Below the pieces are notes generated by a model that saw only the letters and a list, made by a program, of their open reading frames with translations, searched no databases and had not been told where the DNA came from. Source: an uncultured Pelagibacteraceae bacterium (GTDB taxonomy: Bacteria; Pseudomonadota; Alphaproteobacteria; Pelagibacterales; AG-422-B15). From it: a stretch of DNA of 33,928 bases. Position numbers and translations under genes: made by a program. Location: contig CACNSH010000009.1 of NCBI GenBank assembly GCA_902622985.1, forward strand, positions 1-33,928, written 5' to 3'. This document shows, in pieces, positions 1 through 18,673 of the stretch (position 1 is the stretch's first letter; every line of letters starts with the position of its first letter).

Positions 1-135
1 ATTCCAGGCATTCCCATCATAGGGTCCATACCCATCATCATTGGATCTGGTCCCATCATAGGACCCATTCCAGGCATTCCCATCATAGGATCCATCATTC
101 CCATCATCATCGGATCTGGTCCCATCATAGGTCCC
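1..135 (-). repeat. 66/69-bp tandem repeat encoding a Met/Gly/Pro-rich tail
   Basis: Bases 1-66 and 67-135 are two near-identical units, both starting attccaggcattcccatcat. The second carries one extra Met codon. On the minus strand they encode runs such as MMGPDPMMMGM and DPMMGMPG, in frame with the giant gene. The array continues off the left edge, so its copy number is unknown. The high identity between units contrasts with the diverged 45-bp array and suggests recent expansion. Confidence 0.85.
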
Positions 136-3100
136 ATGCCCATATCCATACCAGGAAGCATGCCCATATCCATGTCCATCATTCCACCAAAGTCTGCTGG
201 ACCCATCATGTCTGCGGTCATCATTGGCCCCATAAACATATCACCAGCCTGCATTGCATTTTGCATCATTGATTGCATATCAGCCATTTGTGATTGCATG
301 TTTGACTGCAGCTGCGCAGCCATGTCAGCTCCCATCACGTCACCCATGTCAGCCATGAATGCTGCTCCCTGGTTACCCATCATTTGAGTCATACCTGCAG
401 CCATCATTCCCGCCATCTCTGGGTTAGCAGCTGCCATCTGGCCCATAAATTCTCCAGCGAGATCAGCCATTCCACCTTGAGTAGCTAATTGAGCCATTCC
501 ACTTGCAATGTTTGCGGCCATTTCTGGATTAGCAGCAACCAAATCACCTGCGAACTGAGCTGCAGCTCCTGGATCAAACTGAGCCATTCCAGCAGCAACT
601 TGTCCTGCAATAGCAGGGTTTGCATCCGCCATAGAACCAGCAATTGCACCCACGGCGTCGGGTGCAAGTTCAGCAACACCTGCGGCAACTAAAGTTGCGG
701 CAGCAGGGTTAGCGGTTGCCATTGCGCCTGCCATATCTCCAGCAAGAGCTGGATCGATTGCAGCAAGGCTACCAGCAATTTCACCAGCAGCAGCGGGGTT
801 TGCTTGTGCCATTCCACCTGCAAAAGCTCCAGCTGCATCAGGATTTGCAGCCGCAACATCTTGCATAATTCCAACAGCAGCATCTCCATCAGGAACAGCT
901 GCTAAAACTCCACCTGCAACAGCTCCTGCCGCAGCAGGGTTTGCAGTCATCGCTGCATCAATTACTCCAGCAGCAACATCAGGGTTATCAGCAACCATTG
1001 CACCGACAACGCCTCCTGCAGTGGCGGGTGCCATCTCAGCAACACCCCCAGCAATATCGTTTACTAAATTTGGATCTGCTCCAACCATTTCCATTGCTAC
1101 ACCCGCAGCAACTTGAGGGTTACCAGCGGCAGCTCCTCCTGCAATATCGCCAGCCATATCAGGATTTGCTTCCATCATGCCAACAGCGATTTCACCTGCT
1201 TGTTGCGGAGCTCCTGCGGCCATACCACCAGCAATTTCACCTACAAAATTTTCAGCCATATCAGGATTAGCCATAGCAGCATCCATCATAATACCTGCCA
1301 TGTCACCTGCAATATCAGGGTCACCAACAGCCATTCCTTGAGCAATTGCTCCAACAGCATTTCCAGCAAAGTTATCTACGAGAGCATCAAGCTGATCTGG
1401 GCTTAAATCTGGGTTTGCAGTCGCTGCATTTTCAGCAAACTCTGTTGCAAATTCAGGTGCCATTGCAACTTCCATCATTGCTCCCGCAACATCACCTGCG
1501 ACTTCAGGAGCTGCATTCGCCATACCCGCGGCAGCCGCAGAGGCAGCAGCAGGATTAGCTTCCATCATCGCACCAGCGGCTTCAGCAGCAAGAGCTGGAT
1601 CCGCTTCAGCTATTGCGCCAGCTACAGCACCGGCAGCACCAGGAACATTTTCGGCAACAGTAGCAGCCATATCAGCGGCACCATCTGGATTTGCTTCAAC
1701 CATCGCACCGGCTACATCACCGGCAGCACCAGGAGCCATTTGTGCAACACCTCCTGCAATATCTCCCATCAATTCTGGATTGGCATTAACCATATCTGTT
1801 GCAACTTGAGCAGCAATATCAGCATCACCTCTTGCAACTCCACCAGCAATTGCACCAGCTGCATCAGGGGCAGCCTCCATCATTGCTGTTGCAGCGTCAG
1901 CTGCTAACTCGGGAGCAGCGTCTGCTAAACTTTGCGCTGCTAAACCTGCAGCATCTGGATTTGCGGCAACCATTGCGCTTGCAGCATCTGCAGCAATCTC
2001 AGGAGCGGCTTCTGCCATTGCTCCCATAGCAGCTCCTGCAGCAATTGGATTTGCTTCAGCCATTGCAGCGGCCATATCTGTTGCTGCATCTGGATTAGCT
2101 TCAACCATAGCGCCGGCAACGTCTCCTGCAGCACTTGGTGCAAACTCTGCTACACCACCCGCTATATCAGCTGCGGCATCTGGATTTGCAGCGGCCATAG
2201 CTGTTGCTATATCAGCAGCTTGTCCTGGGTCACCAGCGGCCATACCACCAGCAATATCTCCAGCAAATTCTGGATTAGCTTCAGCCATCGCACCAGCAAC
2301 ATCTGCAGCTTGATCAGGTGCAGCGGCAGCAATTCCTTGAGCAATTCCTTGAGCAGCCTCTGGAGCGGCATCCATCATAGCCCCAGCAATATCTCCAGCA
2401 ATTTCTGGATTTGCTCCAGCCATTCCTGCAGCAATATCTCCAGCAACGTCTGGGTTAGCGGCAGCCATAGCACCAGCAGCATCAGCAGCTAGATTAGGTA
2501 ATGTATCAGCTATTGCTCCAGCTGTACCCTCAGCAGCCATTGGGTTTGCTTCAGCCATCGCACCAGCAACGGCTAATGCGGCATCAGGATTCAATTCAGC
2601 AACGGAGCTCATCATATTGTCAGCAGCTCCAGGTGCAGTTTCTGCAAGAACAGCAGCCATCGTAGCTGTTGCTTCAGGGTTTGCTTCAATTAAAGTATTT
2701 GCAACATTTTCCATTGCAACAGGAGCGGCCATCGCAACACCAGTAGCAATATCACCCGCAATATCAGGGTTAGCTGCAACCATTGCGCCAGCAATATCAG
2801 CAGCAGCTTCAGGATTAGCCATTGCCATTCCACCTGCGATATCAGCAGCAGCTTCAGGCGCAGCAGCGGCCATCGCATTTGCTGCATCAGCAGCAAGCTC
2901 AGGTGCGGCTTCCATCATTCCTTCTGCGGCCATTTGTGCGGCAGCAGGGTTGGCCTCAGCCATTGCAGCAGCAGCCTCAACGGCTAGTTCAGGATTACTT
3001 TCGGCAATAGCAGCAGCCATATCTCCTGCCATTTCAGGAGCGGCTTGAGCCACAGCGCCAGCCATAGCAGCGGCAGCGTCAGGAGCGGCTTCCATCATAG

Positions 3101-6100
3101 CTCCAGCAACATCGGCAACAGCGTCTGGATTTGCATTTGCCATTCCACCTACAATTGCAGCGGCAGCATCAGGATTAGCTTCAACCAGTGCAGTAGCTGC
3201 ATCAGCAGCTGCTTCTGGTGCTTGAGCAGCAACGCCAGCGGCAATCGCTCCAGCGGCATCTGGGTTTGCTTGTATAAGTGCGGCAGCAGCTTCAGCAGCA
3301 GCTTCCGGAGCTTGAGCTGAAACAACATTAGCGATTGCTCCAGCGGCATTAGGATTAATCGCAGCCATGTCTCCAGCAATATCAGCAGCCAAGTCTGGAT
3401 CTGCAGCAGCAACAGTCGCAGCAATATTTGCTACAGCACCTGCCATAGCTTCTGGATTAACAGCGGCCATATCGGCAGCAATATCTCCAGCAAGTTCTGG
3501 TGCAGCCTGAGCGACAGAAGTAGCAATTAGCGCAGCAGCGGCAGGATTGGCCTCAGCAAGTGAGCCGGCCACATCCGCAGCAGCTTCAGGTGCAGCCTCT
3601 GCAACACCTGCGGCAATCATCCCAGCAGCTTGAGGCACAGCTTCTGCTAAAGCAGCAGCGGTATCTGCAGCAGCACCAGGATCAACTTCTATTATTGCGG
3701 CAGTAATATCTTGAGCGGCTGCGGGGTTAGCAGCAGCCATTGCAGTAGCAGCAGCAACTGCAGCTTCAGGGTTTGCATCAACAACAGCAGCCATTGCATC
3801 ACCAGCGGCAGCTGGTGCAATTTGTGCAACTCCTGTTGCAATATCATTTAGAGCTTCTGGATTGGCGTCGGCCATTGCTCCGATAACATCACCAACAGCA
3901 TCAGGTGCGCTTCTTGCCATTCCACCTGCGATTGCGGAAGCAGCATCAGGTGCAGCTTCTGCCATTGCAACAGCAACATCAGCGGCCATTTCAGGATTAC
4001 CAGTTGCAATACCTGCAGCAACTGAAGCAGCAACTTCTGGTGCGGCTTCTGCCATTGCAGCAGCGGCTTGCGTTGCTATATCAGCGCTTCCACCGTCAAA
4101 GAAACCTGCATCGGCCACAACAGCAGCCATGCCTTGTGCTGCAGATGCAGCGGCAGCAGGGCTAGCCTCGGCCATTGCTGCAGCAGCAGCTACAGCTTGT
4201 TCGGGTGCTGACTCCATTAATGCACCAGCAATATCACCGGCAGCAGCTGGATTTGCTTCGGCCATTGCAGCTGCAAGTTCACCCGCAGCTTCAGGGTCAT
4301 TAGAAATAAGTTCAGATGCAACAGATGCAGCAGCATCAGGTGCAAATTGGGCTACAGCAGCAGCCATGTCAGCCGCAGCGTCAGGGTTGGCATCAGCCAT
4401 TGCAGCTGTTACTTCAGCAGCAAATTCTGGATTTGCAGCAGCAGTGCTTGCAGCAATTTGTGCCGCAGCGTCCGGGTTTGCCTCTGCTAATGCGAGAGCG
4501 GCTTCAGCGGCAACCTCTGGGTTGCCCGATGCAACTCCAGCAGCCAGTACCCCTGATAATTCTGGTGCAGCTTCGGCAACGGCTCCAGCCACATCTGCAA
4601 CAAGTTCAGGTGCAGATTCTGCAAGTCCCGCCATTGCTTCACCAGTAGCAGCAGGGTTTGCTTCTGCCATTGCGGTTGCTAGTTCAGCGGCAGCCCCTGG
4701 ATCAGCGGCAGCCATTGCTCCCAACACCTCTCCTGCTGTTTCAGGAGCAACCTGCGCAACTTGTGCTGCCATGTCAGCATTAAAGTCTGCCATATCTTCT
4801 GGTGACACACCTGGTATGTCAGCCATTTGTTCCATCATCTGGCCTGCAATTTCACCTGCGGCTTCAGGATCAGCGGCTGCAACAGCTGTTGCAATGTTTG
4901 CTGTCATTTCAGCCATTTGTTCTGCAGGATCAAAATCTGCAGGAGCGCCAGGTATCTCAGCCATTTGCTCCATCATCGCTCCAGCTAGTTCCGCTGCCTG
5001 CTCTGGTGCAGCAGCTGTAGCTTGCGTAGCGATTGCAGTTGTCATGTCGGCCATTTGTGCGGCCATATCAAATTCTTCTGGTACATTAGGAATGTCGGCC
5101 ATAACATCCATCATGGCTCCAGCTAAATCAGCAGCTCCCTCTGGATCTGCCTGAACAGCAGCTGATGCCATGTTAGCAGTCATTCCAGCACCAGTTTCAG
5201 CAAGTGCTTCAGGTTCAATTCCAGGAATCTCCGCCATTTGTTCCATCATAGTTCCAGCCAATTCAGCTGCACCTTCTGGATCAGCAATAGTTGCTGCAGA
5301 TGCAACGTTTGCTGTCATTGCGGCAGCTGCTTCTGCAAGAGCGCCTTCACTTGCATTACCGTCAACGCTCGTCATAGCTTCTACCATTGCTCCTGCAACT
5401 TCAGCTGCAGCTTCAGGTGCTGCACTTGCAACTTGAGTTGCAATTGCTGTTTGCATAGCTAATGCTTCATCTTGAGAAAAGTTTTCATTTCCAGCAGCGA
5501 CTGCTGCCATTTCACTTGCAATTTCTGTAGCGGCTTCTGGATTGGCTTGAGCGACAGTTGCAGCAATATTTGCAGCAGCACTTGGTGCAGCTTCAGCCAT
5601 AGCAACAGCAGCTTCTGTGGCCAGTTCAGGTAAAGCCTCACTGACTGCTCCAACTGCAGCGCCTGCAGTTGCAGGATTGGCATCCGCCATTGTTGCAGCT
5701 GCTTCAACAGCTTGTTCAGGTGCAACTTCTGCGATTGCTCCCATAACTCCCTCAGCAGCACCAGGCGCTGACTCGGCGATTTGTTCGGCAATATCTCCAA
5801 TTGCTTCAGGGTTAGCTTCCATCATTGCGCCAGCAATATCGCCAGCTAATTCTTGTGCTACTTCTGCTGCAGCGCCTTGCGCTTCAGCAATTGTCTCTTG
5901 AGCAGCAGATTGTACCTCAGCTATTGCAGCTTGAGCTTGAGCTACTATGTTTGGATCGTCAGATGTTAAATCTGCCTGTAAGTCTGCAGTTGCCTCAGCA
6001 ACTTGTGCTTGTGCTTCAGCCTGAGCTGCAGCAACTTCTTGAGCAGCATTTGCTTGAGCAGCAACAGCAACACCTGTTGCAATATCAGCAGCAGCTTCTG

Positions 6101-7376
6101 GATCAGCGGCAGCCATTTCTGTTGCTACTTCTGCAGCAACCTCAGGATTACCTTGTGCAACGCCTCCAGCAATTGCAGCTGCAGCTTCTGGAGCAGCTTC
6201 TTGCATTGCCATAGCAGCATCACCCGCTTGGTCAGGCGCAAGTTCTGCCATTACCTCAGCAGCGGCTCCCGCAGCAGCAGGTGCAACTTCAGCCATCGCG
6301 GCAGTTGCTTCAATTGCTTGTTCAGGAGCGGCTTCAATAATTGCTTCTGTAGCAAGTGCAGCAGCGGCTGGATTTGCTTCAGCTATATCGGCACATAATT
6401 CAACGGCTCCTTCAGGATTAGATGCCATCATTTCTTGAACCATTTCAGCAGCAGCTTCTGGGTTTGATGCAGCAGTACCAGCGATAATTTCAGCAGCAGC
6501 GTCTGGATTCATTTCAATCATTTCTGCAATAATTTCTTGCGTTGCAGCTTGTGATGCTTCAAGTGCAGCTTCTTGACCTGCTTGGTTATTTTCTATTAAC
6601 GCACCTTGTAAATCAGCTTGAATATCAGCAATGCCATCCTGACCAGCTTCAGCAACTTGTGCTTGTGCATCAGCTTGGACTTCAGCATTAGCCTGTGCAG
6701 TTTCTTGATTAACCTCAGCAACAGCGGCCTGCGCAACACCAGATGCAACTCCTGCAGCAACAGCAGCAGCAGCTTCAGGTGCAGCCTGAGCCATTGCAGT
6801 AGCAACTTGTGAAGCAGCTTCGGGGTCAGCAGCAGCTACAGCACTTGCGGCTCCACTAGCAGCAGCAGGGTTAGCAGCAGCCATTGATGCAGCAGCATCC
6901 ACGGCATGTTCAGGCGCAGCTTGTGCAACAGCTGTGGCAACAGCGCCCGCAGCTGCAGGAGCAACTTCAGCAATTGCTGCGGCCATTTCAGCAGCACCGT
7001 CTGGATTAATTTGAGTAAGTGAGGCAGCGACAGCACCAGCGGCAGCTGGAGCATTTTGAACAACGTCAGATGCAACATCCTCTGCAATATCAGGTGCAGC
7101 AACTGCCATTGCAGCTGCGGTAGCATTAGCAGATTGCGGAGAAGCAGCAGCGATTGCGCCAGCTATTTCGGCTGCTTGTTCTGGAATTGCTTGTGCAGTT
7201 GCAGATGCGATTTGTTGAGCTGCAGCAGGGTTGGCCTGAACAACAGCTGCCAGCATTTCATCTGGATTATCATTATTGGCTGCATAGTCTTGAATTAAAG
7301 CCTGTTGTTCTTCCGGTGATCCCGCGGCGGCGACCTGTTGAAAAAACTCTTGTGCTTCTGCTGGCGTTACTGGCAT
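1..7376 (-). CDS. Giant alanine-rich 15-residue-repeat protein (C-terminus off the left edge)
   Basis: One reading frame stays open from ATG at 7376 to the left edge: 2458 codons without a stop, checked in frame across the stretch. I do not recognise the family. The N-terminus (MPVTPAEAQEFFQQ) has no signal peptide or membrane segment. From about residue 40 the protein is built of 15-residue units with Pro at a fixed place, close to NPDAAADIAGAMAEA, the first residue often alternating N and A. Two Gln-rich non-repeat blocks (6520-6715, 5855-6070), a long-period section (4780-5330) and a Met/Gly/Pro tail (1-400) interrupt or end the array. I read no Lys, no Trp, one Cys and about two Arg. A good ribosome site (AAAGGAA, 7384-7390) lies 7 bases before the ATG. 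Codons are mostly GCA and GCT, as expected of an AT-rich genome, so the higher GC reflects Ala content rather than foreign origin. It follows tolC by 54 bases, so export through that channel is plausible but inferred. Confidence 0.85.
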   Translation of the reverse strand, partial: MPVTPAEAQEFFQQVAAAGSPEEQQALIQDYAANNDNPDEMLAAVVQANPAAAQQIASATAQAIPEQAAEIAGAIAAASPQSANATAAAMAVAAPDIAEDVASDVVQNAPAAAGAVAASLTQINPDGAAEMAAAIAEVAPAAAGAVATAVAQAAPEHAVDAAASMAAANPAAASGAASAVAAADPEAASQVATAMAQAAPEAAAAVAAGVASGVAQAAVAEVNQETAQANAEVQADAQAQVAEAGQDGIADIQADLQGALIENNQAGQEAALEASQAATQEIIAEMIEMNPDAAAEIIAGTAASNPEAAAEMVQEMMASNPEGAVELCADIAEANPAAAALATEAIIEAAPEQAIEATAAMAEVAPAAAGAAAEVMAELAPDQAGDAAMAMQEAAPEAAAAIAGGVAQGNPEVAAEVATEMAAADPEAAADIATGVAVAAQANAAQEVAAAQAEAQAQVAEATADLQADLTSDDPNIVAQAQAAIAEVQSAAQETIAEAQGAAAEVAQELAGDIAGAMMEANPEAIGDIAEQIAESAPGAAEGVMGAIAEVAPEQAVEAAATMADANPATAGAAVGAVSEALPELATEAAVAMAEAAPSAAANIAATVAQANPEAATEIASEMAAVAAGNENFSQDEALAMQTAIATQVASAAPEAAAEVAGAMVEAMTSVDGNASEGALAEAAAAMTANVASAATIADPEGAAELAGTMMEQMAEIPGIEPEALAETGAGMTANMASAAVQADPEGAADLAGAMMDVMADIPNVPEEFDMAAQMADMTTAIATQATAAAPEQAAELAGAMMEQMAEIPGAPADFDPAEQMAEMTANIATAVAAADPEAAGEIAGQMMEQMADIPGVSPEDMADFNADMAAQVAQVAPETAGEVLGAMAAADPGAAAELATAMAEANPAATGEAMAGLAESAPELVADVAGAVAEAAPELSGVLAAGVASGNPEVAAEAALALAEANPDAAAQIAASTAAANPEFAAEVTAAMADANPDAAADMAAAVAQFAPDAAASVASELISNDPEAAGELAAAMAEANPAAAGDIAGALMESAPEQAVAAAAAMAEASPAAAASAAQGMAAVVADAGFFDGGSADIATQAAAAMAEAAPEVAASVAAGIATGNPEMAADVAVAMAEAAPDAASAIAGGMARSAPDAVGDVIGAMADANPEALNDIATGVAQIAPAAAGDAMAAVVDANPEAAVAAATAMAAANPAAAQDITAAIIEVDPGAAADTAAALAEAVPQAAGMIAAGVAEAAPEAAADVAGSLAEANPAAAALIATSVAQAAPELAGDIAADMAAVNPEAMAGAVANIAATVAAADPDLAADIAGDMAAINPNAAGAIANVVSAQAPEAAAEAAAALIQANPDAAGAIAAGVAAQAPEAAADAATALVEANPDAAAAIVGGMANANPDAVADVAGAMMEAAPDAAAAMAGAVAQAAPEMAGDMAAAIAESNPELAVEAAAAMAEANPAAAQMAAEGMMEAAPELAADAANAMAAAAPEAAADIAGGMAMANPEAAADIAGAMVAANPDIAGDIATGVAMAAPVAMENVANTLIEANPEATATMAAVLAETAPGAADNMMSSVAELNPDAALAVAGAMAEANPMAAEGTAGAIADTLPNLAADAAGAMAAANPDVAGDIAAGMAGANPEIAGDIAGAMMDAAPEAAQGIAQGIAAAAPDQAADVAGAMAEANPEFAGDIAGGMAAGDPGQAADIATAMAAANPDAAADIAGGVAEFAPSAAGDVAGAMVEANPDAATDMAAAMAEANPIAAGAAMGAMAEAAPEIAADAASAMVAANPDAAGLAAQSLADAAPELAADAATAMMEAAPDAAGAIAGGVARGDADIAAQVATDMVNANPELMGDIAGGVAQMAPGAAGDVAGAMVEANPDGAADMAATVAENVPGAAGAVAGAIAEADPALAAEAAGAMMEANPAAASAAAAGMANAAPEVAGDVAGAMMEVAMAPEFATEFAENAATANPDLSPDQLDALVDNFAGNAVGAIAQGMAVGDPDIAGDMAGIMMDAAMANPDMAENFVGEIAGGMAAGAPQQAGEIAVGMMEANPDMAGDIAGGAAAGNPQVAAGVAMEMVGADPNLVNDIAGGVAEMAPATAGGVVGAMVADNPDVAAGVIDAAMTANPAAAGAVAGGVLAAVPDGDAAVGIMQDVAAANPDAAGAFAGGMAQANPAAAGEIAGSLAAIDPALAGDMAGAMATANPAAATLVAAGVAELAPDAVGAIAGSMADANPAIAGQVAAGMAQFDPGAAAQFAGDLVAANPEMAANIASGMAQLATQGGMADLAGEFMGQMAAANPEMAGMMAAGMTQMMGNQGAAFMADMGDVMGADMAAQLQSNMQSQMADMQSMMQNAMQAGDMFMGPMMTADMMGPADFGGMMDMDMGMLPGMDMGMGPMMGPDPMMMGMMDPMMGMPGMGPMMGPDPMMMGMDPMMGMPG
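400..7290 (-). repeat. 45-bp (15-residue) degenerate tandem repeat array
   Basis: The Pro codon recurs every 45 bases. For example, plus-strand tgg triplets begin at 2046, 2091, 2136, 2181 and 2226. Each unit reads roughly [N/A/D]-P-[D/E]-x-A-A-x-[D/E]-[I/V/M]-A-G-x-[M/V]-A-E. At this period the array could hold up to about 150 units; I did not count them individually. The units are diverged at DNA level, so the array is old or under protein-level selection, not a fresh slippage product. An Asn-Pro start followed by about twelve helix-favouring residues suggests one short helix per unit, hence a possible helical solenoid (inference). Confidence 0.85.
4780..5330 (-). repeat. Longer-period sub-repeat (MMEQMAEIPG type) within the giant gene
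   Basis: Four successive blocks of roughly 45-55 residues carry a landmark of the form AG-x-MM-[E/D]-x-MA-[D/E]-IP, followed by an acidic linker and then an ordinary Ala-rich unit. In translation order the landmarks are AGTMMEQMAEIPG, AGAMMDVMADIPN, AGAMMEQMAEIPG and AGQMMEQMADIPG. They keep the overall Ala/Met/Glu composition but lengthen the period, so this looks like a distinct subdomain. Confidence 0.75.
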
Positions 7377-7430: not shown

Positions 7431-8771
7431 TTAAGACGACGTATTAAATGTTCCAATTTTAGAAGTGTCTTCAACCATATTAGGCTCTAATAAGTTGATG
7501 ACATCTAAAATTTCATAAACAGTTGTTAAAAGGGACATACTATCATCAGATAAATCTTTTAGCGCGCCCTCAAGAGCTTCTTCAGCAGATAAGACTGCCG
7601 CTGCATCTGTTTGGTCTGCAGCTCTTTCTTTTTGGGCAATTGATAAAAGTTCTTTAGCAATTGTTGCCTCGTTTTCACTGTAAGAGAGCATAGTCCTAGC
7701 ATTTGCATACTCTACCCATGCATCTTTTGCAGCTTTAATTGTATCTCTTTCTTTTAAAGCAAGGTCATTAATAGCTCTGTCAAGTGCTGAACGGTCGTTT
7801 AAGTAACCCGGCATTTCCATGTAAAGGCCTGATATAGGAAATTCAACGGTTACCTTAAACTGTTCCTCATAATGGTTGCCGCCAGTATGAGAAGCATCAT
7901 CCTTAGCGGAGTATTTTCCCTCTGCATCAACTGTAGGTCCAAAATTTGCTAACGCAGATGATAAATCGTTCTTTGCAGTTTCAACATCGATTTTTGCGAT
8001 TTGCAAGTCTCTATTTCCAGACAATGCCATGACAACTGTTGCTTCCATTGATTTAGGAACCATTGATATTGTTGAAGGGGCGAGTCTAGGTTTAGTTAAA
8101 TTATTTACGTCAACTCCAGATACGTTAAAAAGTTTTTCATAAGTATACATTGCAGCCTTGAAACTTTTTTCATCTGATATGACAGTTTTTTGAGCACTCG
8201 CGAGTTGTCTCTTAGCCTTTAAAACGTCAGAAGCCAAACCTGACCCAACTTGAACTCTGATTTCTTCTTGTCCAGTAGTTTGCCTTGTGTTGGCCTCAGC
8301 AGCGACAGATGCCTCCAATTTTTCAGAAGCTTTGATCAATCCAAGGTAAGCGTCTGCAGCTTCAATTAATAAATCATTTCTTGCTGTAATCAATTCAAGC
8401 TCTTTCTTTTGTACAGATAGATTTTTATTTCTTACGTCGGACATGGAAGCGCCTGAGTCCATAATTTTTTGTTTCCATGTCAAATCGTAGGTGTGAAATG
8501 CATCAATATTTGAATTAGATGAGGCATTATATTTGTTATTCTGACCACCTTCATATTTTATAGAGAGATCTGGCGCATAAACTAACATTGCGTCTGTAAC
8601 ATCTCGTGAGGCTTCTTCTAGTTCTTTTTTTGAATTTACAATATCTTCATGACTTTCAAGTACACCTTCAACCATTGAAGATAACCTTTCCGCCTTAGCG
8701 GATATTGCAGATGCTGATGCAAATGCAAAAACAATTAAGAATAAATTTATTCTTTTGAGCAATAGTTTCAT
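7431..8771 (-). CDS. tolC: TolC-family outer-membrane efflux/secretion channel
   Basis: 446 residues, the usual length for a TolC/OprM-type protein. These form a trimeric outer-membrane barrel with a periplasmic helical tunnel and serve type I secretion or drug efflux with an inner-membrane pump and adaptor. A signal peptide is clear: basic start MKLLLKR, hydrophobic core, likely cleavage after SAKA near residue 27. The mature part has long Ala/Glu/Lys-rich helical stretches and the typical two-fold internal plan. AAGGGG provides a strong ribosome site upstream of the ATG. A terminator separates it from ilvD, and the giant repeat gene follows 54 bases downstream on the same strand. In many alphaproteobacteria tolC sits between pcm and popZ; here it lies apart, beside the giant gene. 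No pump or adaptor gene is visible in the window. Family assignment is firm; the partner is inferred. Confidence 0.85.
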   Translation of the reverse strand: MKLLLKRINLFLIVFAFASASAISAKAERLSSMVEGVLESHEDIVNSKKELEEASRDVTDAMLVYAPDLSIKYEGGQNNKYNASSNSNIDAFHTYDLTWKQKIMDSGASMSDVRNKNLSVQKKELELITARNDLLIEAADAYLGLIKASEKLEASVAAEANTRQTTGQEEIRVQVGSGLASDVLKAKRQLASAQKTVISDEKSFKAAMYTYEKLFNVSGVDVNNLTKPRLAPSTISMVPKSMEATVVMALSGNRDLQIAKIDVETAKNDLSSALANFGPTVDAEGKYSAKDDASHTGGNHYEEQFKVTVEFPISGLYMEMPGYLNDRSALDRAINDLALKERDTIKAAKDAWVEYANARTMLSYSENEATIAKELLSIAQKERAADQTDAAAVLSAEEALEGALKDLSDDSMSLLTTVYEILDVINLLEPNMVEDTSKIGTFNTSS

Positions 8772-8888: not shown

Positions 8889-10604
8889 TTATATGTCACC
8901 ATAAACGTGGGTTTCTTTATCTGCTCCTGGATGAGTAACCGCACCATCCACAGCAGAACCCACTGTTTTACTATATTTCCAAAGAGTACCAGAATTAAAG
9001 TCTGTTTGTCTTCTTTTCCAGTTTTTTTGCCTTTTTTCCAATATTTGAGGCGAAACATTAAGGGATATTAAACCTTTTTCGGCATCGAGTGAAATTTCAT
9101 CTCCATCTTCAATAAGCGCGATCGGCCCACAGACCGCTGCTTCAGGTGAAACGTGACCTACACAAAAACCTCTAGTTGCGCCGCTAAATCGTCCATCTGT
9201 AATTAGAGCTACTTTGTCCCCCATACCTTGGCCATATATAGCTGCAGTAGTTGAGAGCATTTCTCGCATTCCTGGACCCCCTTTCGGACCCTCATAGCGA
9301 ATAACAAACACATCGCCTTCATTGTAGTTTTCATTCTTTACACATTCGAAAGCATCTTCTTCACAATCAAAGCATTTTGCTTTTCCTCTAAATTTTAAAT
9401 TTTCCATACCAGCAACTTTTACAATTGCGCCTTCAGGGGCCAAGTTTCCTTTTAATCCTACAACTCCTCCTGTAGGAGTTAATGGATTATCATATGGTCT
9501 AATAACTTTTTGATCAGCGTTGAATCTTACAGAGTCTAAATTTTCTGCAATAGTTTTACCAGTAACTGTTAAACAATCACCGTGTATAAATCCACCTTCA
9601 AATAAAGTTTTTATTATTATCGGAACCCCTCCTGCCTCATAAACATCTTTAGCGACATATTGGCCACCTGGTTTTAGATCAGCTAAATACGGTGTACGTT
9701 TAAATATCTCAACGACATCGTCTAAATTAAATTTTATACCACACTCATGCGCAATAGCAGGTAGATGAAGTCCAGCATTTGTTGAGCCTCCGGTTGCGGC
9801 TACAATAGTTGCAGCATTTTCAAGGGACTTTCTCGTAACTATATCACGAGGCCTGATGTTGTTTTCAATTAAATTCATTACTTGCTTTCCAGATTCATAT
9901 GCATATTTATCTCTTTCTTCATAAGGTGCTGGAGCTCCTGATGAATAAGGAAGAGCTAAACCAATAGCTTCTGAAACGCAGGCCATTGTATTTGCTGTAA
10001 ATTGTCCTCCGCAAGCTCCTGCACTTGGGCAAGCAACACACTCAAGTTCATGCAATTCCTCCTCAGTGGTATTTCCAGATGAATACTTTCCTACTGCCTC
10101 AAATACATCTACAACTGTTACATCTTTACCTTTATATTTACCTGGCAAAATACTTCCTCCATACATAAATACACTTGGTACATTTAATCTACACATGGCC
10201 ATCATCAAACCCGGCAATGATTTATCGCAACCGGCGAGTCCTACGATTGCATCGTAACAATGTCCTCGAACAGTTAGCTCTGTAGAGTCCGCAATTACCT
10301 CTCGAGAAACTAAAGATGATTTCATGCCTTGGTGACCCATGGCAATTCCATCTGTTACAGTAATTGTGCAAAATTCTCTTGGTGTACCTTCTGCCTCAGT
10401 TACACCTTTTTTTACTGACTGAGCTTGACGCATTAAAGCTATGTTACATGGTGCGGCCTCATTCCATGTAGAAACTACGCCTACAAATGGCTTATTAATG
10501 TCATTTTCGTCCATGCCCATAGCATAATAATATGATCGATGAGGAGCTTTTTCTGGTCCAACTGATACGTGACGACTTGGCAATTTGTTTTTATTAAACT
10601 TCAT
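8889..10604 (-). CDS. ilvD: Dihydroxy-acid dehydratase
   Basis: 571 residues, normal for the enzyme that dehydrates 2,3-dihydroxy-isovalerate and 2,3-dihydroxy-3-methylvalerate to 2-oxo acids in valine, isoleucine and leucine synthesis. It is cytoplasmic and iron-sulfur dependent. Visible signatures are NEAAPCN (Cys53), AGCDKSLPG (Cys126) and CPSAGACGG (Cys198), the three cluster ligands expected of the family, and near the C-terminus [19 protein letters not shown]. The ATG lies 3 bases after the valS stop, so the genes are probably co-transcribed and perhaps translationally coupled. Supply of valine precursor and charging of valine tRNA thus sit side by side. Identification is very secure. 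Confidence 0.97.
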
Positions 10605-10607
10605 TGT

Positions 10608-13247
10608 TTACTCAAAATTTTGAATAGTTTTTGTTATTTTATCTTTAGACAATTGGTACTCTTTTTCTCTTTCTTTTTGTTCTAAGATTATTTCCTCTGG
10701 CGCATTATTTATAAAATTTTTGTCATTTAACTTGCTGTGTATTTTAGTTAATTCTAGTTCAGTTTTTTTCAGATTTTTTTCTAGTCTTCTTTTTTCTTCT
10801 TCGAAATCAATAATACCCTTAAGTGATAAATATATCAAACCATCATTAAATATGACCTGAACCATGCCCTCATCTTTAGAAAATTCTTTTTTTTCAAATG
10901 AGATAGATCGTGTAAGTGAAATAATTATTTCTTTGTTTTTTTCAATTATTTCCTCTAAATCAGAACTAACACTTGTATAGCTTATTTTAACTTTGGACTT
11001 AACGGGCACATTTAGCTCAGCCCTTGTAGACCTAATTGAAGATATCAAATTAATAAATAAATTTACTTTCTCACTATTTATAGTATCAAAATCTAATTTT
11101 TGCGGCCACTGAGATCGGCTAATTCTCTGAGACCCTTTTTCTAAGATATTTGCTGCTTGATCCCAAACATGCTCTGTAAAAAAAGGCATAATTGGGTGCA
11201 GCATAACTAAAATTTTTGAAAGCACGAGTGAGGTAATTTGTTTGGTCTCATTGATTATTATTTCATCATTTGAAGAATATATAATTTTTGTAATTTCGAG
11301 ATACCAATCACAAAATATACTCCATGTGAACTTATAAAGAGCATTTGCAGCTTCATTAAACTTATAGTGTTTAATTGATTGTTCTGTTTGTTTTCTGCAA
11401 ATTTCAAGTTCATTTAAAATCCACAAATTAAATATATTTTGGGTGTTTTTGGTTTCAAAGTCTACGTAAAGACATTCATTCATTTCACATAACTTTACAG
11501 CATTCCAAATCTTAGTGATAAAATTTCTGTAGCCTTCAACTCTCTGCTTTGAAAGTTTTATGTCTCTACCTTGAGCGGCCATTGAACAAAGTGTCATTCT
11601 TAAAGAGTCTGCACCAAACTCATCCATCAATATCAAAGGATCTATTACATTTCCTTTTGACTTAGACATTTTCTGCCCTTTTTCATCTCTGACTAAAGCA
11701 TGAACATACACTTCACTAAATGGGACTTTATTTGTAAAATATAAGCCCATCATCATCATGCGAGCGACCCAAAAAAATATAATATCGAAACCGGTTACTA
11801 AAGTTGATGTGGGATAAAATTTTTCAAGCTCTGGTGTTTCATCAGGCCATCCTAGAGTAGAAAAAGGCCATAAAGCTGAAGAAAACCATGTATCAAGAAC
11901 ATCCTCATCTTGAACAAGTTTTACATCTTTTTTGTACCTTTCCCTGGCTATCTTGTGAGCATCATCAGAATTTTCGGCAACAAAAATTTCTCCATCTGGA
12001 CCATACCAAGCCGGTATTTGGTGACCCCATATTAATTGTCTTGAAATACACCAAGGTTGAATATTTTCCATCCAATCAAAATACGTTTTCTCCCAATTTT
12101 GAGGCACAAATATTGTTTCTTTTGTTTTTACCTTATCGATTGCATTTAAAGACAATTTTTTTGCATTTACAAACCATTGATCTGTAAGCCATGGCTCCAC
12201 CACTTCACCCGATCTATCTCCATATGGCACAGTATGAATATTCTCCTCAACTTTATTTAGTGCTCCAATAGATTCTAATTCATTAACGATTTTCTCCCTT
12301 GCTTTAAAGCGATCAAGGTTTTGATATTCAATTGGGCAGTTTTCATTAAGCTCAGCATTCTCATTAAAAATATTTATTACTTCAAGATTATGTCTCTTTC
12401 CAATTTCATAATCATTAAAATCATGAGCTGGAGTTATTTTAACAGCACCTGAGCCTTGATCCACTTTTACATACTCATCAGCAATGATAATAATTTTTTT
12501 ATTAATGATAGGAATATATGCACACTTACCAATAAAATCTTTAAACCTTTCATCTTCGGGGTGAACAGCAATTGCCGTATCTCCAAGCATTGTCTCGGGT
12601 CGAGTTGTTGCAATTGTAATTACCTTATCTTCATTTTCTAAATTGTAGTCTATATACCAGAGTGAACCTTTTACTTCTTTTTGGATCACTTCTAAATCTG
12701 AAATAGTAGTTTTTAATTTAGGATCCCAGTTACTCAGTCTTTTATCTTTATAAATAAGTTTATCATTATATAACTTGACGAATACAAATCTTACTGCTTT
12801 TGACAAACCTTCATCAAGAGTAAACCTTTCCCTAGACCAATCACATGAACAACCTAATCTTTTTAATTGATTAATAATTTCATTTCCAGATTGATTTTTC
12901 CATGCCCATACATGTTCTATAAACTGTTCACGAGATAAATCTTTTTTATTTATTTCTCTTTTTTTTAGTTCCCTTTCAACAACCATTTCTGTCGCTATGC
13001 CGGCATGGTCTGTACCAGGCTGCCACAAAACACTTTTGCCCTGCATTCTATAAAACCTTACCAAGATATCCTGGAGAGTATTATTTAGAGCATGGCCCAT
13101 ATGTAGGGTTCCTGTAACATTTGGAGGAGGGATCACTATGCAGTAAGCGTCACTTGAAGACTTTATAGGTTTAAAATCTCCTTCATTTTCCCATGTTTTA
13201 TAAATTTTATCTTCGACAAGACTGGGTTGATAATATTTTTCCAACAT
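10608..13247 (-). CDS. valS: Valyl-tRNA synthetase
   Basis: 879 residues, typical of bacterial ValS, the class I enzyme that charges tRNA-Val with valine and edits threonine. The HIGH-type signature HMGH is at residues 49-52 within PPPNVTGTLHMGHALN. The KMSKS loop (QKMSKSKGNVIDP) is near residue 525. The editing domain lies between them, and the last 65 or so residues form the Lys/Glu-rich coiled coil usual in ValS. The ATG overlaps the stop codon of the upstream popZ-like gene by one base (TAATG), implying translational coupling. The pairing with a PopZ/DUF2497 gene and pcm is characteristic of alphaproteobacteria. Confidence 0.98.
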   Translation of the reverse strand: MLEKYYQPSLVEDKIYKTWENEGDFKPIKSSSDAYCIVIPPPNVTGTLHMGHALNNTLQDILVRFYRMQGKSVLWQPGTDHAGIATEMVVERELKKREINKKDLSREQFIEHVWAWKNQSGNEIINQLKRLGCSCDWSRERFTLDEGLSKAVRFVFVKLYNDKLIYKDKRLSNWDPKLKTTISDLEVIQKEVKGSLWYIDYNLENEDKVITIATTRPETMLGDTAIAVHPEDERFKDFIGKCAYIPIINKKIIIIADEYVKVDQGSGAVKITPAHDFNDYEIGKRHNLEVINIFNENAELNENCPIEYQNLDRFKAREKIVNELESIGALNKVEENIHTVPYGDRSGEVVEPWLTDQWFVNAKKLSLNAIDKVKTKETIFVPQNWEKTYFDWMENIQPWCISRQLIWGHQIPAWYGPDGEIFVAENSDDAHKIARERYKKDVKLVQDEDVLDTWFSSALWPFSTLGWPDETPELEKFYPTSTLVTGFDIIFFWVARMMMMGLYFTNKVPFSEVYVHALVRDEKGQKMSKSKGNVIDPLILMDEFGADSLRMTLCSMAAQGRDIKLSKQRVEGYRNFITKIWNAVKLCEMNECLYVDFETKNTQNIFNLWILNELEICRKQTEQSIKHYKFNEAANALYKFTWSIFCDWYLEITKIIYSSNDEIIINETKQITSLVLSKILVMLHPIMPFFTEHVWDQAANILEKGSQRISRSQWPQKLDFDTINSEKVNLFINLISSIRSTRAELNVPVKSKVKISYTSVSSDLEEIIEKNKEIIISLTRSISFEKKEFSKDEGMVQVIFNDGLIYLSLKGIIDFEEEKRRLEKNLKKTELELTKIHSKLNDKNFINNAPEEIILEQKEREKEYQLSKDKITKTIQNFE

Positions 13248-13654
13248 TAGTTTTTTTTGTTTTCTGTACTAATGATGATTTTTGATGAATTTAATCTCTC
13301 TTGTATAATTTTTGTAAGCTCTTCATTAATGATTTGATCTAATTTTGACTGCGGCAATGAAGCTACTGCATCTCGCACCGCTCGTTTAATTTGTTCCTCA
13401 TTTACTGTATCTGCAATACTAATATCTAATTTGGCTCTATCCTCTTCAATATTTTTTATTTTCTTATCATTAATTGGATTAGATAATTCTAGTATATCTA
13501 TCTTCTGATCTTCTTTTTTTACCTCTTCATCAATTGGATTTGTGAGCTCAATTACATCTTTAGGCAGTCCTTCATCTTGACGAACAGATTTTTCGGACAT
13601 CATATTCTTGATAGCATCTAGTATCTCTTCTGTATTTGGACTGTTTTTATTCAT
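13247..13654 (-). CDS. PopZ/DUF2497-like polar organising protein
   Basis: 135 residues, short and highly charged. The start carries the conserved DUF2497 element (EEILDAIKNMMSEKS, around residues 9-23), then a low-complexity acidic middle, then a C-terminal helical region (AVASLPQSKLDQIINEELTK and following) resembling the family's self-association segment. In Caulobacter, PopZ forms a polar matrix that tethers the chromosome origin. Whether this short homologue does so is inference. Two near-copies of an ELxNPI motif (IELTNPIDEE and LELSNPINDK) occur in the acidic middle. Its stop overlaps the valS start, and it follows pcm by 26 bases. Synteny with valS adds support to a sequence match that is weak on its own. 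Confidence 0.65.
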   Translation of the reverse strand: MNKNSPNTEEILDAIKNMMSEKSVRQDEGLPKDVIELTNPIDEEVKKEDQKIDILELSNPINDKKIKNIEEDRAKLDISIADTVNEEQIKRAVRDAVASLPQSKLDQIINEELTKIIQERLNSSKIIISTENKKN

Positions 13655-13680
13655 TTTATTACTTTTATAGCCATAAGTAG

Positions 13681-14331
13681 TTAGAAACTAAAGCTATTTT
13701 TTTTAATGAACATGCTTAAGACTGGTAATGTGCAATTAAATAACTTTTGTTCACTAATTGAACGCCCGTTCTTTTTGAATAATTTGGCCGAACAGATTTC
13801 TCCTTCTTGAACAATAGCAAAAAGCCTTCCTCCTTCGTCTAATTGATCAATTATATTTAGTGGGATTTCTTGAATAGCGCCCTCAATTATAATTGCATTA
13901 AAAGGTGATTGTTCATTATATCCTTTCACAATTTCATTTTTAATAAAGACTACATTATTTATATTATTTTTTTTTATTGCATTTTCGGAATTATTTAGAA
14001 GTTGCTCATTTTCTTCAACAACGATAACTGTTTCCGCTTGATGCGATAAAATTGCACTTAGATAACCAGTAGTTGCTCCTAGTATCAAAACATTCTCGTT
14101 AGCTTTCAAGTTTATACTTAAAGCTATTTGAGCGATTAGGCTTGGCTTCAAAATTGTTCTTTTATCCTGTAATGTGATATTTTTTTCAACATATGACATT
14201 TCTTTCATGGCCTCGGGCATGAAGTCATTTCTATCAAGTGAATAGAAAACGGAGAGTAGTTCCCCACTCATACCGTTAATTGGCTTTATTTGCCCTTCAA
14301 TCATATTTTTATTGAGTGTTGCTTCTGCCAT
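13681..14331 (-). CDS. pcm: Protein-L-isoaspartate O-methyltransferase family protein
   Basis: 216 residues, the normal length for alphaproteobacterial PIMT, an S-adenosylmethionine-dependent enzyme that starts repair of isoaspartyl damage in ageing proteins. The family opening MIEGQIKPINGMS is at residues 9-21, and the SAM-binding strand-loop reads VLILGATTGYLSAIL around residues 77-91, followed by the acidic VIVVEEN. The loop has GATTGY where PIMT usually has a glycine-richer GTGSGY-type sequence, so activity may be altered. The chosen ATG keeps the usual N-terminal extension before the GQI motif; no good ribosome site is seen. It heads the pcm-popZ-valS-ilvD run. Confidence 0.8.
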   Translation of the reverse strand: MAEATLNKNMIEGQIKPINGMSGELLSVFYSLDRNDFMPEAMKEMSYVEKNITLQDKRTILKPSLIAQIALSINLKANENVLILGATTGYLSAILSHQAETVIVVEENEQLLNNSENAIKKNNINNVVFIKNEIVKGYNEQSPFNAIIIEGAIQEIPLNIIDQLDEGGRLFAIVQEGEICSAKLFKKNGRSISEQKLFNCTLPVLSMFIKKNSFSF

Positions 14332-14425
14332 AATTTTATTGATACGTTTTTATAGTATATGATTACTTACTTTTCAAAAGTATTCACGTTTTGTGATTAT
14401 TAATGATATATAAAACTTATATTTG

Positions 14426-14499
14426 GGCCACGTGGCGGAATGGTTACGCAGAGGACTGCAAATCCTTGTATACCGGTTCGATTCCGGTCGTGGCCTCCA
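14426..14499 (+). tRNA. tRNA-Cys (anticodon GCA)
   Basis: A 74-base cloverleaf with acceptor stem GGCCACG/CGTGGCC, anticodon loop CTGCAAA with GCA, T-arm CCGGTTCGATTCCGG, discriminator T (a known Cys identity base) and an encoded CCA. The next gene, read from the other strand, ends only six bases beyond. Confidence 0.96.
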
Positions 14500-14505
14500 T
14501 TCATA

Positions 14506-15531
14506 CTATGTTAAATGCTTTCTCAAAGAGGCAATAATTTTTTCCGCTTGATCATCCCTTATCCAAGAGTGAAAACTTTTAATCATAGAGGGCGAAAAAT
14601 TGGGCAATAATTGATTCAGTTTACTTTTCATTGATCTTATGGATCCCCTTTTTGGGTTAGTAGCAAGATAAGCTATGTAAGATTGAGGATATTCTGGCTG
14701 TAATCGTATGAGTTTTTCAGAATATTTCTGCGCATCTTTTATGTTTTCATCAATAAAATTAAATCTCCAAAGTTCAAAATACGTTCTCCATTGCCCGTAT
14801 ATATCTTCATATAGTTCAAGTGCCTTATGCATTTCTAAATAAGCTCTTTTTCTTTCGTCAATCTGAAATAATGAAGATCCAAATAATCGTCTTCCATGCG
14901 CAAATTTTTTATTTAACTTAATTGAATTATAGGAATGATTTAGCGCTAGATCAAAGTTACCTCCGTAATAATAGGAAAGTCCAAATGCAAATTGGCATAA
15001 AAAATTATTTTCATTTAATGAAACTGAACTTCTTGCTAAGTTTAATAAGGTTTTTCTAACTTTATTTGGATCTCTTACATTGAACATCCAGAGCTTATCA
15101 GCATAAGACATTGCAATTTTTGAAATTGTGATTGCTAGATCCTCTTTTGGAATTGAGTTGCTAAGTTTTTCATAAGAATTTTTTGAAAGCAAAAACCTTA
15201 TTGTCCTTTTATCTTTTTGATTTTTTGACTTTCTTATTACTCCATTTTCTTCAAGATACTTTAATCTCCTCCAAAGAGTTCTCTCCGGTGATTGAGTAAA
15301 ATATTGAATGTCATAAAATGAAAGGCCTTTAAAAAAATTAACATATAGTCTGAACACGATTTCTAAATCTAGCAAGCTTGTTAAGGCCAATGATTTGAGC
15401 ACTTTAAATAAGCCACCATATAAAAAGCTAAATACAGCCTCGTCTAGCAAGTTGACATTTTTGGATACTTGATCACTTCTTCCAAATCCAAACTCATAAA
15501 TATTGTCTTTTTGTACTGTCATTGAGATCAT
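14506..15531 (-). CDS. Winged-helix DNA-binding protein with C-terminal TPR region
   Basis: 341 residues. Residues about 45-120 look like a winged helix: a helix-turn-helix (FYDIQYFTQSPERTLWRRLK), a dimer-type helix (YLEENGVIRKS) and a wing (KDKRTIRFLLSK). Residues about 165-300 resemble TPR helices (NNFLCQFAFGLSYYYGGNFD, then KFAHGRRLFGSSLFQIDERK). The C-terminal end (LLPNFSPSMIKSFHSW, then KIIASLRKHL) recalls the tail of TPR regions attached to alphaproteobacterial transcription regulators and cyclases. There is no membrane segment, so a cytoplasmic regulator is likely. It stands alone between tRNA-Cys and tRNA-Asn on the opposite strand, and no target is evident. The start could also be the fourth codon, also ATG. 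Confidence 0.6.
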   Translation of the reverse strand: MISMTVQKDNIYEFGFGRSDQVSKNVNLLDEAVFSFLYGGLFKVLKSLALTSLLDLEIVFRLYVNFFKGLSFYDIQYFTQSPERTLWRRLKYLEENGVIRKSKNQKDKRTIRFLLSKNSYEKLSNSIPKEDLAITISKIAMSYADKLWMFNVRDPNKVRKTLLNLARSSVSLNENNFLCQFAFGLSYYYGGNFDLALNHSYNSIKLNKKFAHGRRLFGSSLFQIDERKRAYLEMHKALELYEDIYGQWRTYFELWRFNFIDENIKDAQKYSEKLIRLQPEYPQSYIAYLATNPKRGSIRSMKSKLNQLLPNFSPSMIKSFHSWIRDDQAEKIIASLRKHLT

Positions 15532-16411: not shown

Positions 16412-17494
16412 TTATCTCCCTGTATCTAATTTCTTTTCTAACCTTTGACTGTACCAACTCATACCGTAACAAAAAACCCAAAAAACTGCAGCAGCAAATA
16501 CATAACCTTCATGTGAGAATCCTAGCCAATCTGGGTTTGTTCCAACAAATTGAATGATACCAAGAAAATCAAATAAACCTATAACTAAAACAAGTGTTGT
16601 ATCCTTAAATATTGCTATAAAACTTCCTATAATTGCGGGAATTACCATTTTGAGTGATTGAGGTAAAATGACTAATGCCATCATTCTCCAATACGTTAAT
16701 CCTACTGCTTGCGATGCTTCGTACTGGCCCTTTGGCATTGCCTGCAAGCCGCCTCGGACAACTTCTGCTAAATATGCAGCTGAAAAAAACATAACTCCAA
16801 TCAATGCTCGAATTAATTTATCAAAGTTGACCCCCTCGGGCATGAACAGTGGAAACATATTTGAGGCCATAAATAAAACTGTTATAAGCGGAACACCTCT
16901 CCAAATTTCAATGAAGATTGTACATAAAATTGAAACTACTGGCAGCTTAGACCTTCTGCCTAGAGCAAGCATTACTCCAATTGGAAGAGATAATACAATT
17001 CCAACTCCCGCTATGACTAGTGTTAAAAACAAACCACCCCACAAACGAGTTTCAACGGCTTCAAGGCCAAGACCGCCTGACAACATAACCACACAAATGA
17101 TTGGGAAAATTATAAGCAGAAAAGCGCCAACCCATCCTTTGTGCTTTAGATTAGGAATAAGAAGATATACACCTGATATAAATAGAATAAGATAGACAAA
17201 ATTTATTCTCCATAATTCTTCAGTTGGGTATAGTCCATAAAATATAAGTTTGATATTTTGTTGAATAAATATCCAGCATGCTCCTTCATTTGTGCAGTCA
17301 TCTCGGGTTGAGCCGACAAAATTTGCATCTAAAAATATCCAGTTCACTAGTGGAGGGATTAGAATGTAAAGGAGGTATAAGCCAAAAATTGTAAGCAAAG
17401 AATTATACCAATTAGAAAAAAGATTTTTTCTAAGCCATCCCATTACTCCTAACTCGATAACTGGAGGCCCGATCTCTTTGTTGGCAGCGCTCAT
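16412..17494 (-). CDS. aapM: General L-amino-acid ABC transporter, permease AapM
   Basis: 360 residues, long for an amino-acid permease but normal for AapM/BztC, which carry an N-terminal extension with extra membrane helices. The C-terminal half has the permease core, including the ATPase-docking loop [20 protein letters not shown]. About eight hydrophobic segments are visible. The cytoplasmic start and helix 1 ([20 protein letters not shown]) are followed by a Cys-containing periplasmic loop. The start codon directly abuts the aapQ stop with no spacer, indicating coupled synthesis of the two permeases, which form a heterodimer. Confidence 0.95.
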
Positions 17495-18673
17495 TTATCT
17501 TTCACCATCAACTTTCATAAATCTGTTAAATAAATTCATAATTAAAGATGTGAATAGGCTTAAAAATAGATATACACCCATCACCATTCCAATAATTTCA
17601 ATTGCTTGACCAGTTTGCATCAATGCCGTTCCAGCAAATACCAAAACGAGATCAGGATATGCAATAGCAGCTGCCAAGGAAGAGTTTTTAGTTAAGTTTA
17701 AATATTGATTAGTTAATGGCGGCACAATAACTCGCAATGCCTGAGGAATTATAATTAGACGAAGTATTAGATTTTGTTTTAGACCTACAGATTTTGCAGC
17801 TTCTGTTTGACCTTTCGATACCGCCATGATGCCACCTCGAACTACTTCTGCAATAAATGATGCTGTGTACATGGCTAGCGCAAAAGTTAGAGCAACTAAT
17901 TCAGGTATTAATTTTACGCCACCTTTAAAATTAAAACCTTTTAATTCCGGGTATTCAAAAGAAACTGGAAAACCAGTTGCGGCTAAACTAATAGAGAATG
18001 TACCTAAAATTAATGCAGTTGATACATAGAAGGCAGGGAATCTCTCTCCAGTTCTATTTTGTCTACGTTTTGCCCAAATGAATATTCCAATTGAGATTAT
18101 TATTGTTAGCCAAAGCAAGTAAAATATTATTGAAGATCCCTCACCGAATACTGTGTCAGGTATAAATAAACCTCTGTTATTTAGAAAAAATGAATCGTAA
18201 AGCTCTAAACTTTGCTTAGGTTTTGGAAGTGCTCTTAAAACAGCAAAGTACCAAAAAAATATTTGAAGAAGTAATGGGATATTTCTAAGAATCTCAACAT
18301 AAGCCTCTGCAATTTTTGCAATCAACCAATTAGATGACAGACGCATAATGCCTACAGTAAATCCAATTATTGTTGCAAACAGAATACCTACTCCAGCAAC
18401 CAGTAAGGTATTTAACAAACCAACAATAAAAGAGTCAAAATAAGTAGATGTTGGAGAATACTCTATAAGAGTCATACCTATATCAAATTGAGACTCAACT
18501 CCTAAAAAGTGAAAACCGCTTGCTAAGCCCCGTTCCAGCATATTGCGAGCTGTGTTAGTAACAATGTAGTAAATACCAAGAGCTACTAACCCTAATGTGA
18601 TAAGCTGATAGAAGACTCCTTGAACACTTCTATTAAAAAGAAAACTTCCGATTTTTGATTTATCCGTCTCCAT
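17495..18673 (-). CDS. aapQ: General L-amino-acid ABC transporter, permease AapQ
   Basis: 392 residues, matching AapQ/BztB. There are about eight membrane segments, starting with GVFYQLITLGLVALGIYYIV near residue 20. The conserved permease loop EAAKSVGLKQNLILRLIIIP is near residue 290, followed by PPLTNQYLNLTKNSSLAAAI, typical of the family. It pairs with AapM, whose start abuts this stop. It lies 102 bases below aapJ, across a strong hairpin, so it is likely translated from read-through transcript in lower amounts than the binding protein. Confidence 0.95.
   Translation of the reverse strand: METDKSKIGSFLFNRSVQGVFYQLITLGLVALGIYYIVTNTARNMLERGLASGFHFLGVESQFDIGMTLIEYSPTSTYFDSFIVGLLNTLLVAGVGILFATIIGFTVGIMRLSSNWLIAKIAEAYVEILRNIPLLLQIFFWYFAVLRALPKPKQSLELYDSFFLNNRGLFIPDTVFGEGSSIIFYLLWLTIIISIGIFIWAKRRQNRTGERFPAFYVSTALILGTFSISLAATGFPVSFEYPELKGFNFKGGVKLIPELVALTFALAMYTASFIAEVVRGGIMAVSKGQTEAAKSVGLKQNLILRLIIIPQALRVIVPPLTNQYLNLTKNSSLAAAIAYPDLVLVFAGTALMQTGQAIEIIGMVMGVYLFLSLFTSLIMNLFNRFMKVDGER

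Follow-up and report, generated by a model that had tools for sequence, protein, structure and literature searches.

A giant, putatively type I-secreted protein with a predicted helical-repeat shaft in an uncultured Pelagibacteraceae bacterium

Substrates of type I secretion systems leave the cell with the C-terminus in front and adopt their fold outside. Among the best comparable substrates are the RTX adhesins, which, as outlined in PMC12077191, combine a domain for retention with a series of Ig-like extenders and, ahead of the secretion signal, distal domains that bind ligands. Here, a giant gene is described that opens contig CACNSH010000009.1 (assembly GCA_902622985.1) of an uncultured Pelagibacteraceae bacterium; the stretch of 33,928 nucleotides analyzed, which starts at the first base of this contig (contig C9 of genome G000), is referred to as the window. 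Like the RTX adhesins AhLap, LapA, MpIBP and FrhA, the encoded protein is a giant single chain with a tandem-repeat shaft, carries RTX repeats and a secretion end at its C-terminus, as found for the window's genome, and is accompanied by its own type I exporter with TolC. However, its shaft is predicted to be built from 15-residue helices rather than from the Ig-like extenders given in that outline, and no Ig-like repeats were found by Pfam in the giant protein. It furthermore possesses a Met-rich linker, lacks a recognized ligand-binding domain and has a C-terminus that co-varies with the exporter. The protein is probably a type I-secreted surface or extracellular fibre, comparable to an RTX adhesin with a helical shaft, and would thus add a helical-shaft form to the type I-secreted giant proteins.

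The gene occupies a minus-strand reading frame of 2458 codons without a stop codon, as an earlier note on this DNA had reported; it starts with ATG and runs into the contig start. The proline codon recurring every 45 bases was likewise borne out: residues 1 to 2330 contain 139 prolines, and the spacing is exactly 15 residues in 106 of the 138 successive pairs, whereas shuffling the sequence 1000 times gave a mean of 8.2 and a maximum of 17 proline pairs at this distance. The repeat does not cover the entire frame; it holds for residues 49 to 2330, is interrupted by two proline-poor stretches and is followed by a Met-rich tail from residue 2331 to 2458. The unit follows the consensus N/A-P-E/D-A-A-A/G-D/E-I/V-A-G/A-A-M/V-A-E-A, with a large hydrophobic residue at position 8 in 73% and at position 12 in 94% of 106 units. 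Self-identity is 0.32 at a lag of 15 residues and 0.36 at a lag of 30, hinting at a two-helix period. Type I antifreeze proteins are built on an 11-residue Ala repeat; the Ala-rich helix is shared, but a repeat of that type was rejected since identity at lag 11 is only 0.23, and the note had already remarked that the periods differ.

The 2458 residues include 897 Ala, 339 Asp and Glu, 190 Met, two Arg, one each of His, Tyr and Cys, and neither Lys nor Trp; lysine, arginine and the aromatic residues are thus almost lacking. Lysine makes up 7.4% of the other open reading frames of at least 120 residues in the window, compared to none in the giant frame; 13 bodies or partial bodies of relatives contain zero to three lysines each, so that the exclusion is not total. 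Past residue 2330, the methionine content is 26–36%, and complete proteins hold 301–376 Met each. The GC content at third codon positions (GC3) of the giant gene is 0.224 and thus close to that of the neighboring ilvD (0.228) and TolC (0.262) genes, which attributes its high GC content to Ala codons and speaks against a recent foreign origin. A phage origin was also rejected, as neither the giant frame nor its C-terminal fragment nor the related RTX protein L037 (see below) matched a PHROG at E 0.1.

No hydrophobic stretch that might hint at a Sec signal is apparent at the N-terminus when the translation is read directly, and a search for a retention module gave no Pfam match there; regular repeats begin by about residue 49. 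In the repeat body, no single stretch exceeds a curated Pfam or NCBIfam cut-off, and the giant frame has no NCBIfam match at E 1. The XPC-binding family PF09280 reaches 53.3 bits when summed over the whole protein (cut-off 26.4), with no single stretch passing, and ApoLp-III stays below its cut-off; known repeat families were therefore rejected for the body, in agreement with the note's view of an unrecognized family. A sequence search against solved structures returned four matches at E 1, the best being 1klp at E 0.048, and no close relative. Judged by sequence, the giant protein is real, conserved and unusual; apart from the weak XPC-binding matches that add up over the protein, its 15-residue helix repeat is absent from the family libraries that were searched. 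A literature search by title gave no description of this protein among the matches listed, which does not prove that none exists.

Residues 1326–1685 were modelled with AlphaFold2 using 15 further alignment rows from relatives, other segments of the giant protein and L037. The model has a mean predicted local distance difference test score (pLDDT) of 83.3 and a predicted template modelling score (pTM) of 0.65, and each unit forms one helix of 11–14 residues. L037 (positions 10463-15490, minus strand) is a second RTX protein of 1675 residues in genome G022 of the same genus, which has the 15-residue period but a more ordinary composition with far less alanine, and shares 23–29% identity with the alignment rows used. 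Its model (pLDDT 76.3, pTM 0.60), which is not fully independent since its alignment included window segments, has a helix pattern matching that of the giant protein. Foldseek and VIA placed the two models close to designed repeats and to solenoids of the importin/catenin type; the scores support the fold class only, the Foldseek template modelling scores by query length being at most 0.39 among the 50 rows shown. The repeat body is predicted to form one helix per 15-residue unit and may be an ARM/HEAT-like alpha-solenoid, in line with the Asn-Pro-capped helices and helical solenoid suggested before. With Armadillo and HEAT proteins it would share the predicted superhelix of stacked short helices; however, its unit is a single Ala-rich helix of 15 residues, and the protein is presumed to be extracellular.

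The genome containing the window comprises 1.3 Mb on 17 contigs. A relative's type I ABC transporter, used as query, had its best match in this genome near the end of contig C4, where a 373-residue fragment is followed on the same strand by a 551-residue ABC transporter and a 402-residue HlyD adaptor (locus L047). The fragment contains GMDPGQMM-type Met repeats and RTX calcium-binding repeats (PF00353 HemolysinCabind, 54.6 bits, cut-off 23). HlyD exceeds the TIGR01843 cut-off (314.6 versus 208.65), and the ABC transporter is matched best by type I permease models, below the NCBIfam but above the Pfam cut-offs; no ligand-binding domain was recognized in L047 by Pfam or NCBIfam. In three relatives, the whole gene lies on one contig and encodes 3058 (L034), 2958 (L035) and 3176 residues (L036), with TolC upstream and ABC and HlyD downstream, and the order TolC–giant gene–ABC–HlyD is that of the operon in relatives. 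Because of this synteny, we infer that the window frame and the C4 fragment belong to a single gene. By comparison with L036, the gap between them would be of the order of 350 residues, and the window would code for about four fifths, counted from the N-terminus, of a chain of some 3000 residues (a gene of about 9 kb). The protein would therefore be longer than the minimum of 2458 residues given earlier, and the statement that it does not resemble RTX proteins is not borne out, since its C-terminus, which lay out of sight of the note, carries RTX repeats beside a type I exporter. L036 likewise has RTX repeats at its end, L034 has none according to Pfam and L035 lacks GGxGxD; this motif occurs at least once in 15 of 23 C-terminal fragments and is missing in eight. 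In the window's genome and several relatives, assembly stops within the Met-rich tail, so that the N- and C-terminal parts end up on different contigs and the gene is easily missed. The tail of the G022 giant gene (L138:1-1416) opens with a deviating, Cys/Leu-rich reading ahead of the RTX end, possibly due to a frameshift in the tail repeat.

Sequence identities were correlated among 23 genomes with an ABC gene and a C-terminal fragment, taking the last 130 residues as the C-terminus and using 2000 permutations. The C-terminus correlates with ABC (r 0.74) and ABC with HlyD (r 0.86), each with 0/2000 permutations. The body, in contrast, correlates poorly with ABC (12 genomes, r 0.15, 203/2000) and the C-terminus (r 0.10, 362/2000), and follows TolC (r 0.75, 9 genomes, 3/2000), ilvD (r 0.46, 10 genomes, 12/2000) and the downstream flank (r 0.74, 11 genomes, 0/2000). 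ABC (r 0.23, 11/2000) and the C-terminus (r 0.18, 22/2000) track the downstream flank weakly in 22 genomes. In G020, the body is 98% identical to that of the window, compared to 48% for ABC and 34% for the C-terminus; where body and exporter share a contig, the picture is the same, the identities of body and ABC to the window being 97% and 49% (G026), 96% and 49% (G011) and 90% and 50% (G017), as opposed to 92% and 86% in G012. As the C-terminus, ABC and HlyD co-vary while the body follows the flanks, the three resemble a cassette that is swapped while the sequence on either side stays conserved, which suggests that C-terminal end and exporter are passed on together as a single exchangeable unit.

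The body itself is highly conserved. Compared with 12 relatives, three of them partial, identity is 86–98%, nonsynonymous divergence (dN) is 0.008–0.086 and its ratio to synonymous divergence (dN/dS) is 0.03–0.09; a frame maintained in this way is a real coding frame, which speaks against a broken frame or an assembly artefact, the note's own caveat. TolC is 71–89% (8 relatives) and ilvD 91–95% identical (9 relatives). The order of the units is also kept: for 99 of 106 units, the positional counterpart in G034 is the best or tied-best match (14 ties). Within the unit, the proline never varies, positions 5, 9, 12 and 13 vary in 7–13% of columns, and the acidic positions 3, 7 and 14 are the most variable (37–48%); according to the helix pattern, the variable positions would face outwards. 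The synonymous divergence pS of the body (0.21–0.56) lies below that of TolC and ilvD (0.62–0.77), for which both recombination and codon bias are possible reasons.

Taken together, these data point to the following model. A dedicated type I system of TolC, ABC transporter and HlyD would export the giant protein, whose C-terminus would leave the cell first and fold outside, with calcium in the RTX versions. The Pro-capped amphipathic helices would then pack against one another as a long, acidic alpha-solenoid rod, which would stay at or near the cell surface and bear the variable C-terminal end outwards. By analogy with RTX adhesins, the solenoid, which is conserved, would act as the shaft, and the apparently exchanged C-terminal module would form the distal end; a shaft whose tip for binding or secretion can be swapped could mediate attachment or alter what phages, grazers and particles meet. 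Type I export is well supported by the gene context and, in our judgement, very likely; an extracellular rod is likely, and an adhesin-like role is slightly favored. It is tempting to speculate that the system is one of genus-wide modular surface variation, in which a fixed, near-Lys-free shaft of some 130–150 helices (estimated from the unit list) and a hypervariable Met-rich linker are combined with a tip swapped together with its matching ABC/HlyD, and the short arrays described below belong to a wider undescribed repeat class of the Pseudomonadota; this tentative reading is possible rather than probable. If true, a cell with a small genome would change its outermost contact surface towards phages, grazers and particles while keeping the shaft.

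Instead of remaining as a tethered fibre, the protein could be released as an extracellular acidic, near-Lys-free, Met-rich polymer, which might serve, for example, as a decoy, as a sink for metals or oxidants or as a sticky matrix. The composition given above fits such a polymer, and no Pfam retention module and no LapG-type protease (PF06035) were found, the latter in none of 43 genus genomes, many of them incomplete (the control was found in Caulobacter, one of 14 control genomes). The giant protein differs from LapA-type adhesins in this lack of LapG and in its predicted helical units. Nevertheless, a bulk polymer would not call for over 100 units in maintained order or for so low a dN, and shedding it would presumably be costly for a small genome, making release unlikely. 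Quite improbable is an S-layer-like structural coat that the exporter merely places: giant size, the rod-like predicted fold and the wide occurrence in the genus would suit it, but the variable C-terminal module and the exporter operon resemble those of a tip-bearing substrate, and no anchoring domain was matched in Pfam. The summed PF09280 score would agree with a cytoplasmic scaffold, whose NP-capped helices would resemble those of XPC-binding/STI1 domains; the failure of every single stretch to pass, the exporter operon and the RTX end render this very improbable. A low-complexity artefact or misassembly, suggested by contigs that end inside the Met-rich tail, deserves practically no credence given the frame common to 12 relatives, its dN/dS and its neighbor-like GC3.

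Homologs with the same period exist across related genomes, which the note had named as support for a new family. The whole frame as query matched 15 of 59 relatives, including G030, whose match is a different RTX protein (28% identity) and was excluded from the body count. Profile A1, built from eight repeat segments, matched 15 of 397 genomes of the order, all from the window's genus (E 1e-10), four of 385 of the class (E 1e-8) and seven of 398 of the phylum (E 1e-10), the window's own genome being counted in the latter two. Among the 43 genus genomes, TolC was found in 16, ABC in 25 and the body in 15, and at least one of these in 28. Four of the remaining 15 hold the downstream flank gene and, next to it, a HlyD frame, which was recognized by motif in three and read by eye as a cut frame in the fourth (L146); the other 11 lack that flank gene too. 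In total, 32 of the 43 genomes thus hold the locus or pieces of it; no empty site was found, and real absence in part of the genus was rejected in favor of, mostly, assembly gaps. The general view of SAR11-type bacteria is that of free-living minimalists, and a dedicated exporter with a gene of about 9 kb would represent an overlooked surface structure in this presumably SAR11-type genus. SAR11 is reported to depend on reduced sulphur; if this applies here, the high Met content deserves attention.

Beyond the genus, eight proteins of Pseudomonadota (L083, L084, L148–L153) carry short arrays with 7–14 proline pairs at distance 15, and a ninth locus, L085, has a single such pair in the frame examined. 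They share the period and the Pro-capped Ala-rich pattern with the giant protein and differ in their frames of 284–732 residues (L153 is cut) and in FecR (L083, L084) or MFS matches (L152). L148, L149, L151 and L153 have no Pfam match at 0.01, and RTX was not matched in the seven proteins searched (all but L150). Genome G030 additionally encodes a helical-looking protein of 749 residues with RTX-like GGxGxD repeats (L038:4273-6522, minus strand). The features of the locus are listed in Table 1.

Table 1. Features of the giant gene and its surroundings (window positions unless a locus is named).
Feature	Coordinates	Strand	Basis or remark
Giant gene, first 2458 residues	3..7376	-	ATG start; 3' end cut by contig start
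N-terminal leader, residues 1-48, preceding the regular repeat	7233..7376	-	Unit list; no Pfam match
Repeat body, residues 49-2330, predicted 15-residue helices N/A-P-E/D-A-A-x-D/E-I/V-A-x-x-M/V-A-E-A	387..7232	-	Unit list; AlphaFold2 of residues 1326-1685
Pro-poor Q/E/A-rich stretch inside array, residues 199-289 (about)	6510..6782	-	Unit list
Pro-poor Q/E/A-rich stretch inside array, residues 425-521 (about)	5814..6104	-	Weak ApoLp-III match, 18.9 bits (cut-off 36.3)
Start of Met/Gly/Pro/Asp-rich linker, residues 2331-2458, 36% Met	3..386	-	Contig breaks here
TolC-type outer-membrane channel gene, 54 bp upstream of giant gene	7431..8771	-	PF02321, 116.2 bits, above cut-off
ilvD-like dihydroxy-acid dehydratase gene, upstream flank	8889..10604	-	Synteny in relatives
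Beta-barrel and secreted-looking protein	L034:16231-17163 and 17169-18110		Also L035, L125, L143, L145

The TolC-type protein scores 120.8 bits against TIGR01844, below the cut-off of 225, and the gene upstream of it is presumably ilvD, judging by its sequence. In some relatives, HlyD is followed by a passenger-less inverse-autotransporter beta-barrel of about 310 residues (PF11924, 110.6 bits in L034), which might anchor the giant protein. It is accompanied by a secreted-looking protein of about 313–362 residues, which has no Pfam match in L034 and is split into two frames in L125; both are missing in other relatives, for instance L036, L047 and L051. The locus is arranged differently in L027 (positions 2-3088), where TolC, cut at the contig start, and ilvD are convergent. 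In L145 (positions 1309-1881, genome G030), an unrelated N-terminus runs in frame into the C-terminal part of an exporter ATPase, reflecting either a deletion or a single-cell chimera.
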